Positions 30,551-35,648 of a stretch of 35,927 bases of DNA are shown here, piece by piece. Where the stretch lies: positions 1 to 35,927 of the forward strand of contig JAJZZM010000008.1 of NCBI GenBank assembly GCA_021797555.1, read 5' to 3'. The notes below the pieces were generated by a model. That model worked only from the letters and a program-made list of their open reading frames with translations. It made no database searches and was not told where the DNA came from. This DNA comes from Thermoplasmata archaeon. GTDB taxonomy: Archaea > Thermoplasmatota > Thermoplasmata > Thermoplasmatales > Thermoplasmataceae. How positions within the stretch are numbered: position 1 is the stretch's first letter; every line of letters starts with the position of its first letter. The translations under genes and the position numbers were made by a program.

Positions 30551-30638
30551 GCCGGGGTGGCTCAGTTGGAAGAGCGTCGGACTCATAAGTTTATACTGAG
30601 AAATCCGAAGGCCTCGGGTTCAATCCCCGACCCCGGCA
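30551..30638 (+). tRNA. trnM: tRNA-Met (CAT), elongator type, with a 15-nt intron
   Basis: The parts are GCCGGGG (acceptor 5'), D arm GCTC...GAGC, anticodon stem TCGGA/TCCGA, loop with CAT at 30584-30586, variable AGGCC, T arm TCGGG TTCAATC CCCGA, acceptor 3' CCCCGGC and discriminator A. CCA is not encoded. The acceptor G1:C72 excludes an initiator. A CAT tRNA modified by TiaS would be Ile2, but the body matches archaeal elongator Met as I recall it. The intron at 30588-30602 lies between positions 37 and 38. Confidence 0.92.
30588..30602 (+). other. tRNA-Met intron in a bulge-helix-bulge context
   Basis: The intron AGTTTATACTGAGAA follows A37. Outer helix TCGGA/TCCGA, 3-nt bulge AAA on the 3' side, 4-bp helix CTCA/TGAG, 3-nt bulge TAA on the 5' side, then a GT/AC minihelix closing a four-base loop. 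This is a minimal strict bulge-helix-bulge for the archaeal splicing endonuclease, with cuts after the second base of each bulge. Confidence 0.85.
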
Positions 30639-30791: not shown

Positions 30792-32012
30792 ATGGGAATA
30801 TATTCAATAGAGCAGGATCTAAAAGCAGAATATAGTAGATTAAATAAAATACCTCAAAATGAAAGGAATAAAATAATAGATTTTGTAAAGGAAATAAAAA
30901 TAACAGGAATAACAGAATATAGAGAGTATTTTTATCTAGTAAGGTTAAGAATGATCTATTCATATTTAATGGATAAATTCTTAAATCCTGAAAAATCTGA
31001 TATAATAGACATGATTTTAAAATTTAAAGAAAAATACACAGACAAAACAATGATAGACTATGAAAGTGTAATGAAGAGATTTTATAAATGGCTTTACGGT
31101 CCATTGCCTGATTTTATGAATATAAAATTCAATCACAAATCAAGCCATGACAAGAAAATGGATCTAATAACAAGATCGGATATGGATGAATTAATAGGTG
31201 CATGCAATAATACCAGGGATAAAGCATTAATATCATTATTATACGATTCGGGATGCAGAATCGGTGAGATATTATCATTGAGAATGAATGATGTAATCTT
31301 TGATGAATATGGATTAATATTAAATGTGCATGGTAAAACAGGAAATAGAAGTGTAAGGATAGTAGGCGATTCAATAGCCTATTTAAAGGATTATTTAAAA
31401 TCAAAGGATGATAGGGATGAAAGCCTGTTTACAGGATTGCAAAAGCAGAATATGCACAGGCAAATGAAATACTATGATGCAAGGAAATTATTATTAAATT
31501 TAAAAGCAAGGACCGGAATAGAGAAAAGAATATACCCGCATTTATTCAGGCACACCAGGGCATCAATATTAGCATCAAAGGTTCCTGAATCACCTTTAGA
31601 AAATCAAATGGGGTGGGTCCATGGTTCTAAAATGACATCAGTATATGTGCATTTATCAATGAGGGATCAGGACAATGCAATTTTAAAAGCATATGGTATA
31701 AATGTTAATGAGAAGAATGAAATTGAGGAAAAACCTAAAAAATGCCCAAGATGTGATTATCTAAATCCGAGCAATGCTAAATACTGCCATAACTGCTGGC
31801 TTCCATTTGATGAGAAGTTAGCACTGGAATATGAAAATAAGGAAAAGGAAATAGAGGAAAAAATAGAGAATTCCGGGGCAATACCAGGAATAGCAAAGAA
31901 GATGATAGAGAATGCACCTGAAACATTTAAATCAAAATTAATAGAAAATGTTTTAGAGGAAATATTGAAGGATCCTGGCCTGTTAGAGAAATTCAGGGAT
32001 GAAATCAAGTAG
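30792..32012 (+). CDS. Tyrosine recombinase/integrase with C-terminal zinc ribbon
   Basis: A 406-residue site-specific recombinase. All catalytic residues can be placed: R156 (SGCRIGEIL), K182 (HGKTG), H250-x-x-R253 (HLFRH), H277 (GWVHG) and nucleophile Y285 (TSVYVHL). A SAM-like N-terminal domain precedes (about 20-110). After the catalytic domain comes CPRC-x10-CHNC (318-335), a zinc ribbon, then a helical acidic/basic tail (about 340-406). Cellular XerA is under 300 residues without this ribbon, so a mobile-element integrase is more likely. It begins 150 bp after tRNA-Met, a classical integration neighbourhood. I found no duplicated tRNA end in the window. Confidence 0.9.
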   Translation: MGIYSIEQDLKAEYSRLNKIPQNERNKIIDFVKEIKITGITEYREYFYLVRLRMIYSYLMDKFLNPEKSDIIDMILKFKEKYTDKTMIDYESVMKRFYKWLYGPLPDFMNIKFNHKSSHDKKMDLITRSDMDELIGACNNTRDKALISLLYDSGCRIGEILSLRMNDVIFDEYGLILNVHGKTGNRSVRIVGDSIAYLKDYLKSKDDRDESLFTGLQKQNMHRQMKYYDARKLLLNLKARTGIEKRIYPHLFRHTRASILASKVPESPLENQMGWVHGSKMTSVYVHLSMRDQDNAILKAYGINVNEKNEIEEKPKKCPRCDYLNPSNAKYCHNCWLPFDEKLALEYENKEKEIEEKIENSGAIPGIAKKMIENAPETFKSKLIENVLEEILKDPGLLEKFRDEIK

Positions 32013-32539: not shown

Positions 32540-32779
32540 ATGGTAGTAAAAAAAATATCAATTTCAATAGATGTGGAAGTGGATAAGGCCCTAAACATAC
32601 TTGCTGATGGGGAAATGATGAGTAAATCAAGATTAATAGAAAGCATAATATTGCACGACAAAAATATAAAAATGATTATAAACGCACAGAGGCATGATAC
32701 CGCTTCCGGAGTTTATGCAGTTCCAGGGCACAGGGAACACATTAACAAAGAAAAAGATAAAAAACAAATATTTCAATAA
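32540..32779 (+). CDS. Ribbon-helix-helix (CopG-like) DNA-binding protein
   Basis: 79 residues. The N-terminal 45 form an RHH unit: strand KKISISIDVEV, helix DKALNILADGEMMSKS, helix RLIESIILHD. The C-terminal part (HDTASGVYAVPGHREHINKEKDKK) is polar and probably a tail that contacts another protein or is disordered. RHH proteins bind palindromic operators as dimers and act as plasmid copy-number regulators, antitoxins or viral repressors. It sits immediately after the GNAT gene and could be its partner. The start ATG has GTAATACT before it, with no clear Shine-Dalgarno motif. Confidence 0.8.
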   Translation: MVVKKISISIDVEVDKALNILADGEMMSKSRLIESIILHDKNIKMIINAQRHDTASGVYAVPGHREHINKEKDKKQIFQ

Positions 32780-33067: not shown

Positions 33068-33328
33068 TATACAAATTTTGGCAGTTAATTAGATATCAGG
33101 GATTAATTTAAAGACAATAAATAAAGTATATTAATAGATGGCATGGCACATGGCCAGAGGTTTAGCATGGCAGTTCTTTAATTAATTTATCTATCGATAG
33201 AGGGGGTAAGGGGGTGACCTGCCTAAAATAATTATGATTATTAATAAAAAATCATTGAAAATGCTGGATTTTAAATATAAAATAAAGCTTATATCCATTT
33301 AAATTAATATTAAAAATCAAGGTTTTCT
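33068..33328. other. Intergenic stretch with G-rich element and palindrome
   Basis: No clear gene. CTATCGATAG (33191-33200) is a perfect 10-bp palindrome joined to AGGGGGTAAGGGGGTGACCT (33201-33220), two G5 tracts 2 nt apart. Upstream, ATGGCATGGCACATGGCC (33138-33155) is a short repetitive stretch; GCATGGCA recurs at 33165-33172. The 16-codon ORF it contains (33138-33185) is not convincing. Confidence 0.5.
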
Positions 33329-33565
33329 ATGAAGGAAAAAATTCAAATTGAGTATTCGTTGAACGATGATGAATATGAGATATTATCAATACTGGAAAAA
33401 TCAGGCGTTGTAATGACCGTTCACCAGATTTATATTATATTAAAATTCAGGAATAGGGAAATTAAGCCAATGAAAATATGGGTTATACTTAACTCACTTA
33501 CAATTCTTGGACTGGTTAAAAAATACATGAAAAACTCAAGGATCTATGAATATGAAAAGGCATGA
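33329..33565 (+). CDS. Winged helix-turn-helix protein, small regulator
   Basis: 78 residues fitting a winged helix: helix 1 NDDEYEILSILEKSG, helix 2 VHQIYIILKFRNRE, recognition helix IKPMKIWVILNSLTILGL, and the wing VKKYMKNSRIYEYEKA. Such stand-alone wHTH proteins are common in archaeal plasmids and viruses. The ATG is preceded by CAAGGTTTTCT, and near-identical AAGGTTTTCTA and AAGGATTTCAC stretches precede short ORFs at 34372 and 34641. No partner gene is obvious; it is convergent with the next minus-strand gene, with stop codons 1 nt apart. Confidence 0.65.
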   Translation: MKEKIQIEYSLNDDEYEILSILEKSGVVMTVHQIYIILKFRNREIKPMKIWVILNSLTILGLVKKYMKNSRIYEYEKA

Positions 33566-34025: not shown

Positions 34026-34371
34026 AAAATCATATATGGAATCAGAGCTATATAAGGTTTTATAACAATTTCAAAGAATTATAATGACATTATAATATGC
34101 ATGCATATTTTTATAAAATCATTATAGGATATAGGAAATTACAGGATTACTGTTAAAAATTAATGAAAAATATGAGATTATGGCCTTATTTTTTATGCAA
34201 AATTACAATGAAATTTTAAAAGAATAGTCCGGCAATACGTATTTAAAAAATCACAAAACCGATTGAAAAATTAGAATATTATGGATTCATATAACAGTGA
34301 CATAGATATTTTATAAGCTGTTATAATTTTGGTATAATCTTTATAAGACATATAAAAACAAAGGTTTTCTA

Positions 34372-34421
34372 ATGTTAAAAATTTTAAAATTGTTATAATG
34401 TCTTTAAAATATAGAAAAACA
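34372..34421 (+). repeat. 50-bp direct repeat, copy A
   Basis: Aligns without gaps to 34641-34690 with 39 of 50 positions equal by my count. It begins with an 8-codon ORF (MLKILKLL then TAA) preceded by AAAGGTTTTCTA. Confidence 0.5.
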
Positions 34422-34640
34422 CATGAAAATAAAGGAAAACTAACATTTATTATATTATAATTTAATCGGATTAAAAATATGCATTTTTATGCATTCCTTT
34501 AAAATGTGATAATTAAGACAAATACAATTTTAAAAAAATCACATGCCTATACCGTAATAATAAGGGTTTTATAGCAATAATATAAGAAAATATGAAATTG
34601 AAACAATTGTTATAAAACACAGTAAATTAAAGGATTTCAC

Positions 34641-34690
34641 ATGTTGCAAATTTTAAAATTATTGTGATTCATTTATAACATAGGAAAACA
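34641..34690 (+). repeat. 50-bp direct repeat, copy B
   Basis: Aligns with 34372-34421. Its 8-codon ORF reads MLQILKLL then TGA and is preceded by AAAGGATTTCAC. Confidence 0.5.
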
Positions 34691-34721: not shown

Positions 34722-35003
34722 ATGGCATTAAAAAATGGTATTTTTGAAATTTTGAAATGGATATGGCACAAGAGAGAGAGGTATAAGGGGATAGGCTTTT
34801 TTTGGAAAATTTTTCATGGAATATTTAAGGGATGCTTTTCAATTTTATATTTTGGAAGGATCCATCGAACTTATCAGTTAGAATATACCAATGGCCAGTC
34901 ATGGACCAGGGCAAAAGATTGCCAGGAGATAAGATCTGATATCAGATTAATATCAGATATATGGAAATGCAGAAAAATCAGGGGTTATATACCTAAAATC
35001 TGA
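34722..35003 (+). CDS. Small basic, aromatic-rich protein (intact copy of a duplicated unit)
   Basis: 93 residues. The N-terminal half is amphipathic and rich in W, F, I and K (MALKNGIFEILKWIWHKRER...FFWKIFHGIFKGC), so it may associate with membranes. The C-terminal half is polar and ends SDIRLISDIWKCRKIRGYIPKI. That ending recurs in the decayed frame at 35059-35298 (SDIRRVSDIWGHRKIKDEIVKI). The middle RTYQLEYTNGQSW may be a degenerate version of RTVCLNCDG in the other copy. I do not recognise the family. Coding is uncertain because its most conserved DNA overlaps CTGATAT palindromes. Confidence 0.4.
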   Translation: MALKNGIFEILKWIWHKRERYKGIGFFWKIFHGIFKGCFSILYFGRIHRTYQLEYTNGQSWTRAKDCQEIRSDIRLISDIWKCRKIRGYIPKI

Positions 35004-35030
35004 TATGGCGGCTGCTGCTTCCTATTATTA
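34934..35030. repeat. 97-bp direct repeat, copy 1, with CTGATAT palindromes
   Basis: Ungapped match to 35229-35325 at a constant 295-bp offset, 69 of 97 identical by my count. Identity is concentrated in four blocks: ATCTGATATCAGA, TATCAGATATATGG, AAAATCTGATAT and TTCCTATTATTA. ATCTGATATCAGAT at 34934-34947 is a perfect 14-bp palindrome. Confidence 0.7.
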
Positions 35031-35058
35031 TATACATAGGAATAAAATAGTGTTTCAC

Positions 35059-35298
35059 ATGAAAATCAATAGTTTTAATCCGCAAAAATTTAGCAATAAA
35101 TTAAAGCAGTGGTTTAAAGGATTATCGCTAAAAATTGCAAATGCAGGATATTATAACAATATTTAGGCCTGAAGAACTGTATGCCTGAACTGTGATGGGA
35201 TATCAATACTAAAACAGATAGGATATAAATCTGATATCAGAAGAGTATCAGATATATGGGGACACCGTAAAATTAAGGATGAAATCGTGAAAATCTGA
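35059..35298 (+). pseudogene. Decayed paralogue of the 34722 small gene
   Basis: A single frame begins MKINSFNPQKFSNKL..., reaches a TAG at 35164-35166 and a TGA two codons later. It then continues RTVCLNCDGIS...SDIRRVSDIWGHRKIKDEIVKI to TGA at 35296-35298. Total length is about 80 codons, similar to the 93-codon intact copy, and the C-terminal 22 residues align with it. Two in-frame stops make it a broken gene. The first 35 codons could still be translated as a short peptide, after the GTGTTTCAC just upstream of the ATG. Confidence 0.45.
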
Positions 35299-35325
35299 TA
35301 TAGTGATGTTGATTTCCTATTATTA
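35229..35325. repeat. 97-bp direct repeat, copy 2
   Basis: Second copy of the repeat at 34934-35030. It keeps a 12-bp palindrome TCTGATATCAGA. Between the conserved blocks the sequence has diverged, including beyond the stop codon of the overlapping frame. Confidence 0.7.
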
Positions 35326-35348
35326 ATTAATAAAGAATAAAAAACAAA

Positions 35349-35648
35349 GTGAACATCCCGTGAACACTTACAGATATCGTGAAATAAATGATTTAAAAGT
35401 AAAGTGTTCACGTTCACTCATATTTCATGTGTAATATTAACTAATTAAGAATTAAAAACTAGGTGTTCCATTTTGATAAATTTCTTAAATCTCATATAGA
35501 TATAGTATTTTACTACATTGGCATTATAATTTTAGGTGTTCCACCTGAAAATTAGTATTTTTCTATACCTCTAATAGATTTTAAAAACAATGAAACACTT
35601 AAAGACATGGTAATTTAAAGGCTTGGCATTTAAAATTTAAGTGTTCCA
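35349..35648. repeat. Iteron cluster GTGTTCCA / GTGTTCAC
   Basis: GTGTTCCA occurs at 35463-35470, 35536-35543 and 35641-35648, each preceded by RG or AA. GTGAACA occurs at 35349 and 35360, 11 bp apart. GTGTTCAC is at 35404-35411, with GTTCAC directly after it. Looser GTGTTTCA copies are at 35050-35057 (plus) and 35591-35598 (minus). Orientation is mixed. Possible replication, partition or repressor sites. Confidence 0.65.
35359..35412. repeat. 11-bp perfect inverted repeat around a 32-nt AT-rich centre
   Basis: CGTGAACACTT (35359-35369) and AAGTGTTCACG (35402-35412) are exact inverse complements. They lie within the iteron cluster and could form a cruciform or bind a dimeric initiator or repressor. 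Confidence 0.75.

Follow-up and report, generated by a model that had tools for sequence, protein, structure and literature searches.

A duplicated site in an integrated element of a Thermoplasmatales archaeon as a candidate replication origin with element-specific recognition sites

The window, i.e. the whole stretch of 35,927 nucleotides that was analysed, is the entire contig C20 of an assembly that shares its genus with Ferroplasma acidarmanus Fer1. Towards its right end, a tRNA gene is followed by genes for a tyrosine integrase, a GNAT acetyltransferase, an RHH-like protein and a winged-helix protein, all upstream of a duplicated site located 0.6–1 kb from the contig end. The genes that matter for the following analysis are:

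30551–30638: tRNA gene
30792–32012, + strand: tyrosine integrase with zinc ribbon
32540–32779, + strand: RHH-like protein (PF01402, E = 0.004, below the curated cut-off), the weaker candidate reader of the site
33329–33565, + strand: small winged-helix protein (wHTH; winged helix predicted by AlphaFold2, pLDDT 93.6), candidate reader of the palindrome

A tyrosine integrase beside a tRNA gene is a hallmark of an integrated element, bearing out the original prediction that the duplicated block belongs to such an element. When the window's own genome was searched for another occurrence of the tRNA region (attR), the matches beyond the tRNA itself were all short and weak. Several of the contigs studied, including the window, end inside the element. 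Another integrating element is present in this genome (L094, G000:C19:32149-39785); the C-terminus of its integrase is closely related to that of the window element, and it also has a 1039-aa Prim-Pol and a homologue of the winged-helix protein. No core of the kind described below is recognisable on its contig. At 33190–33218 of the window, a G-rich stretch GGGGGTAAGGGGGTGACC comes after the palindrome TCTATCGATAGA; this was noted together with L067, L056 and L057, and stretches resembling GGGGTAAGGGG are present near several other core-bearing sites.

The site consists of two copies of a 97-bp block starting at 34934 and 35229, a spacing of 295 bp. They align without gaps and are identical at 69/97 positions, reproducing the count of the original prediction, whereas no 97-bp self-match exceeds 56/97 when the window's last 3.9 kb are dinucleotide-shuffled 60 times. 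The identities are clustered (16 runs, P = 0.024), and the unchanged blocks are exactly the four named earlier, with lengths of 13, 14, 12 and 12 bp. The homology exceeds the 97 bp, extending over about 125 bp at 74% identity (34924–35047 versus 35220–35342). The features of the site are:

34768–34795, + strand: purine-rich block CACAAGAGAGAGAGGTATAAGGGGAT upstream of copy 1, kept in L065 and L066
34934–34947, no strand: copy 1 dyad S2, ATCTGATATCAGAT, a perfect palindrome and putative element-specific recognition site, offset -64/-57 from S4
34951–34957, - strand: copy 1 inverted half-site S3, TATCAGA, offset -46
34999–35006, + strand: copy 1 half-site S4, TCTGATAT, abutting the core
35007–35022, + strand: copy 1 GC-rich triplet part of the core, type A, GGCGGCTGCTGCTTCC
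35023–35034, + strand: copy 1 AT triplet block TATTATTATATA, putative unwinding element; only 0.3% of the 13-bp windows within 1 kb melt easier
35230–35241, no strand: copy 2 dyad S2, TCTGATATCAGA
35246–35252, - strand: copy 2 half-site S3, TATCAGA
35294–35301, + strand: copy 2 half-site S4, TCTGATAT
35302–35317, + strand: copy 2 triplet part of the core, type B, AGTGATGTTGATTTCC, the same type as in L069, L059, L081 and L057b
35318–35329, + strand: copy 2 AT block TATTATTAATTA; 1.1% of the windows within 1 kb melt easier
35347–35419, no strand: inverted repeat AAGTGAACATCCCGTGAACACTT ... AAAGTGTTCACGTTCACTC, directly 3' of copy 2 and kept in L055 (231-bp match, 83%)

The inverted repeat is possibly part of the same site as copy 2. 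With up to one mismatch, TCTGATATCAGA has no further occurrence anywhere in the window. Upstream of the site, in the same intergenic region, a second repeat pair was noted (34341–34421 and 34610–34690; 81 bp, 75%, spacing 269 bp) built around AATTTTAAAATT palindromes, with partial recurrence in L065/L009.

A DNA search of 40 relatives returned two close homologues (L055 in genome G005 and L065 in genome G003) and, in several genomes, a short piece of the block (window 34995–35045) in unrelated surroundings. A sequence-only profile of this piece matched many genomes of the same family at E ≤ 0.1. With a core profile at E ≤ 0.001, matches were obtained in 19/117 genomes of the order, belonging to nine genera, one of which is a weak match in another family. 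The site is present in at least eight genera of one family of acid-loving Thermoplasmatales archaea, with one weak match elsewhere in the order, and occurs once or twice per element in many integrating plasmids and proviruses. Public plasmids gave no DNA or protein match, and IMG/VR no exact pattern match. Judged by titles, abstracts and passages of the literature, no published description of this site is apparent and it is, to that extent, previously undescribed.

As a whole, the putatively cis-acting site spans about 130 bp and has two halves, i.e. element-specific motifs resembling binding sites and a near-constant core. The motif positions are fixed to the base pair, at -76, -64/-57 (the dyad), -46 and 0 (S4), and are identical in most loci; the dyad of copy 1 sits where other elements place their own palindromes, and at -46 unrelated elements have their own sequence. 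Besides the dyad S2, the inverted half-site S3 and the half-site S4, a motif S1 is present in several elements. S4 is an 8-mer adjoining the core; its sequence varies between elements, and within each element its own motif reappears upstream. The element motifs are:

TCTGATATCAGA: window, L055 and L065
TGGGATATCCCA: L053
TGTAATATTACA: L057, with a similar motif in L067
TATGATATCATA: L068
TGTCATGTGACA: L056 and L058
TGGCATGTGCCA: L069 and L081

The pair TCTGATATCAGA/TCTGATAT of the window has its counterpart in TGGGATATCCCA/TGGGACAT of another element. The free sequence between these fixed positions corresponds to the strongly differing bases that had been remarked upon between the two window copies.

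This covariation was counted in 17 loci picked to avoid near-duplicates, including loci that do not conform, with the S4 boundaries set by eye prior to counting. The S4 5-mer of a locus reappears upstream 31 times, versus 12.1 times on average and at most 29 times in 100,000 permutations (P ≤ 1e-5), a P value that is optimistic since several loci share ancestry, the signal being carried by the motif changes among those loci. At -58, 3.8 of 6 dyad positions are complementary, versus a background of 1.45 ± 0.36. Two loci retrieved later by the core model alone, L079 and L081, conform to the dyad rule. In each element, the intact palindrome is almost confined to the site, the exceptions being one copy with one mismatch in G020b and a few one-mismatch matches in G020a, the latter at chance level for an AT-rich motif. 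A further variant of the site, with a CCACAA/TTGTGG repeat beside a core such as ATGACGATGTCTCCTATTATTATATA, was observed in L080, L082 and L068:3323-3348.

The core, GGCGGCTGCTTTCCTATTATTATATA, abuts S4 without a gap and is composed of a GC-rich triplet block, TTTCC and the AT triplet block TATTATTATATA. Two types occur, A (GGCGGCTGCT, copy 1) and B (AGTGATGTTGA, copy 2), and the A/B pairing of the window is also seen in L057 and L064. Conservation covers about 35 bp including the GC triplets, with TTCCTATTATTA as the best-kept part; TATATA is absent from copy 2, L076 and L079. In 16/16 loci, the AT block ranks within the easiest-melting 1.1% of the 13-bp windows in the surrounding 2 kb (1 kb each way), a property calculated from sequence, and is adjoined by the stable GC block. 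The lower strand of the core reads 3'-GAT AAT AAT AT-5', or 3'-GAT AAT AAT-5' in most cores.

Two other explanations for this conservation were rejected. A conserved RNA structure is not apparent, as the tRNA is the sole Rfam match in the window and RNAalifold finds three pairs without covariation in the 85-column core alignment. A conserved short open reading frame is contradicted by 1-bp and 5-bp indels in W1, L065, L067, L063, L076 and L079, which break every frame; an LLLY-like frame is mostly synonymous where kept, yet it is not kept throughout the loci. The site is therefore not coding. The suggestion that the blocks are preserved protein-binding sites rather than coding sequence is in this way supported by the sequence, since the blocks are kept in relatives and the reading frames are broken. 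A mixture of coding and binding constraints at the end of a small ORF had also been proposed. This is not supported, nor is the overlap with the ORF end meaningful: in a relative (L009/L065), several stop codons interrupt the homologous stretch when read in the frame of ORF 34722–35003.

The carriers are integrating elements with integrases and replication genes of the Prim-Pol/D5, MCM-like or DnaA-like ATPase type. Gene calls given here without a profile search, such as MCM-like or the absence of ParA, relaxase, HUH and Orc1 genes, come from reading the sequences. A Prim-Pol/D5-type group comprises L057, L064, L065 and L068. In a provirus-like group, a gene for a zinc-ribbon DnaA-like ATPase is followed by the core and then by an ArdC-like gene; in six loci (L053, L058, L061, L062, L063 and L069) the ATPase gene ends about 73–89 bp before the core match. 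This ATPase has relatives in the DnaA-like family represented by PHROG 5484 and by the lemon-shaped Haloferax virus LSV-48N. A PDB sequence search with it gave no significant relative, and PHROG profiles run on the other element genes returned nothing useful. The MCM-like carrier is a provirus-like 29.4-kb unit present in 1.64 head-to-tail copies at the end of a single-contig genome (G005:C1:1810703-1859109; L089, L054 and L053). The integrase gene runs across its repeat junction, about 11–12 kb from the core. This head-to-tail arrangement, with the integrase gene spanning the junction, suggests that the unit exists as a circular or tandem form, and that its attachment site lies inside the integrase gene. 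The site itself was rejected as the attachment site, given this junction and the position of the window integrase beside the tRNA gene. It was also rejected as the host oriC, as the strong core matches of complete genomes sit in integrase-bearing regions.

Based on these results, each 97-bp copy can be read, with a probability of roughly 55%, as belonging to a site that resembles a replication origin, on an integrating element of the plasmid type. By analogy with known origins, and with about the same confidence, the site would combine element-specific initiator sites with a shared unwinding core. A DNA-binding protein encoded by the element might recognise its own triplets at S1–S4 and form a rigid complex there; acting with a helicase or ATPase of the Prim-Pol/D5, MCM-like or SSV1 B251-type 'DnaA-like' kind, this complex might open the AT block, where replication would start. 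An origin is favoured because the elements, which have replication genes of their own, combine an element-specific address with a core that is shared and prone to melting. The original prediction had left the choice between a repressor and an initiator array; the initiator half fits better, and the repressor half is disfavoured by the near-confinement of the palindrome, the lack of a consistent following gene and the constant low-stability core next to it. Several observations count against an origin. No single replication protein is common to the carriers, and the distance from the site to the replication gene varies widely. No reader protein is shared by all carriers either. In L064 and L079 the inner palindrome differs from S4, and in L066, L060, L057b and L056b the core lacks matching palindromes, these loci perhaps being remnants or variants. 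In the 29.4-kb unit, no GC-skew turn is seen at the core, the skew being uninformative.

For the window, the wHTH protein (33329) is a better candidate reader than the RHH protein (32540), judging by their distribution. The RHH protein is present near L055 and absent near L065, and is therefore not general. Members of a winged-helix family of 76–90 aa with divergent recognition helices occur in the window, the 29.4-kb unit, G053 and two G020 elements; the family is absent from genome G003, whose element carries the window's identical palindrome. A fold search with the wHTH protein identified the generic winged-helix class only. Autoregulation as a route to the reader was rejected, as the palindromes lie almost only at the site.

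A promoter/operator or small-RNA start, with the AT block as TATA box and the palindromes as operators of an element-specific regulator, is rather unlikely. The TTATATA of the AT block resembles an archaeal TATA box, an AT-rich minimum would suit a promoter as well, and dyads are typical of operators. However, the best-kept part of the core is not TATATA, which some cores lack, and the conserved 35 bp with its GC triplets is far more than promoters usually keep. The ArdC-like gene downstream of the core has its own TTTAAATA box. The genes after the site differ between loci, so that it has no consistent position before a gene, and in L065 no same-strand gene start is recognised for 2.8 kb. Moreover, the palindrome is not found at other promoters apart from the G020b copy and the chance-level G020a matches, and its near-confinement to the site disfavours a dispersed operator. 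A centromere-like partition site or a multimer-resolution site, bound by the small winged-helix or RHH proteins, would agree with one dedicated site of element-specific sequence per element and small DNA-binding proteins nearby. It is nevertheless improbable, as no ParA-type ATPase was recognised by eye among the element genes, a conserved core prone to melting is not required of a centromere, and the core is not an inverted pair, unlike the crossover site of a tyrosine recombinase.

Quite improbable is a start for packaging or transfer (pac or oriT), possibly serving plasmids that travel in helper virus particles, as pSSVx does. In provirus-like elements the core follows a B251-type ATPase, and carriers without the provirus-like module have the site as well. 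According to PMC9608457, this ATPase family is implicated in replication and packaging. Against this, the triplets differ between elements of one genome (TGGGATATCCCA and TCTGATATCAGA in G005), so that plasmids do not seem simply to share the sites of a helper; reading by eye revealed no relaxase; and LSV-48N, with its related ATPase, has no such site behind the ATPase gene. Finally, two tandem copies in AT-rich intergenic DNA, with a second repeat pair nearby (34341/34610), could be an ordinary duplicated remnant without function, such as a transposon end or a decaying gene. This is very improbable for the window and contradicted for the site family as a whole by the fixed geometry and covarying sites in unrelated elements and by a core shared across genera. 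No transposase was recognised next to the block, which also lacks terminal inverted repeats. It had been put forward that loss of the blocks in relatives, or their recurrence as a transposon end in unrelated contexts, would speak against binding sites; the blocks are kept in L055 and L065, and in unrelated contexts the site reappears with its geometry unchanged and another palindrome in place, and not as a transposon end.

The proposed origin is comparable to several known systems. Iteron-type plasmid origins consist of repeats bound by Rep and an adjoining AT-rich unwinding element. As in these, repeats that are specific to the replicon and fixed in their spacing adjoin an AT block of low stability (the covariation and offsets given above; a putative unwinding element in 16/16 loci), on mobile replicons with their own replication genes. 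Candidates for a cognate Rep were found, none of which accompanies every site. Where iteron origins have direct repeats, the present site has a dyad, a half-site in inverted orientation and a single half-site that abuts the core; moreover, the hosts are archaeal and the core is conserved across elements with unrelated replication proteins. Rolling-circle double-strand and geminivirus/nanovirus origins, with their variable binding locus and constant nic site, also place element-specific recognition sites at a fixed distance from a conserved action site, but here there is no conserved hairpin or known nick motif and no HUH endonuclease was recognised in the carriers by eye. The pRN1-family origin of Sulfolobus likewise belongs to archaeal plasmids with a Prim-Pol replication protein. 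As described in PMC4234260, pRN1 has a stem-loop of about 100 nt just downstream of the replication gene and no iterons. In contrast, the present site has iteron-like motifs, no conserved core fold and a variable distance to the Prim-Pol gene, which in L065 starts 2.8 kb after the core. Within the same order, plasmids pPO1 and pTA1 have a repeat-rich, AT-rich intergenic region proposed as origin and Orc1/Cdc6 as presumed initiator (PMC3177234), and a repeat- and AT-rich intergenic candidate is the common point. The carriers described here differ from these plasmids, pPO1 being compared by its description, in having Prim-Pol, MCM-like or DnaA-like ATPase genes; no Orc1/Cdc6 gene was recognised among the element genes, several of the contigs being incomplete.

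The bacterial basal unwinding system (BUS) consists of DnaA boxes and DnaA-trios with a (.A.)x3 pattern, according to PMC8287927. The order of a recognition site, a GC-rich stretch and trinucleotide AT repeats is alike, at least three (.A.) trinucleotides follow in most cores, and the lower strand 3'-GATAATAAT-5' fits the trio pattern, a resemblance to be taken as a lead. However, the host is archaeal, the recognition sites vary by element and none is a DnaA box (TTATCCACA-like), and in length the GC spacer comes close to the upper limit for BUS. DnaA is not known from archaea. A new class of archaeal origin, in which each element would have its own address of covarying triplets, fixed in position to the base pair, next to one shared GC/AT-trinucleotide unwinding core opened by an archaeal AAA+ ATPase, in parallel to the DnaA-trio system, is unlikely and is put forward as a speculation.

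To our knowledge, few genetic tools exist for Thermoplasmatales, and an origin candidate would be a direct route to vectors. Hardly any replicons of this order are characterised, and a compact origin candidate would mark replicating elements in genomes. Two sequenced plasmids were known in 2011, as stated in PMC3177234. With covarying addresses on a constant core, exchanges of a few bases could also probe a specificity and incompatibility code.

Among the carriers, a conserved provirus-like block was observed in several Thermoplasmatales genera (L053, L058, L060, L061, L062 and L069). It encodes a very long secreted-type protein, small membrane proteins, the DnaA-like zinc-ribbon ATPase and the ArdC-like protein, and possibly represents an undescribed group of spindle-shaped viruses. 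The Prim-Pol elements L057, L065, L068 and L079 encode a small LSM/Hfq-like protein, identified by weak Pfam matches in L057 and by similarity in the others.
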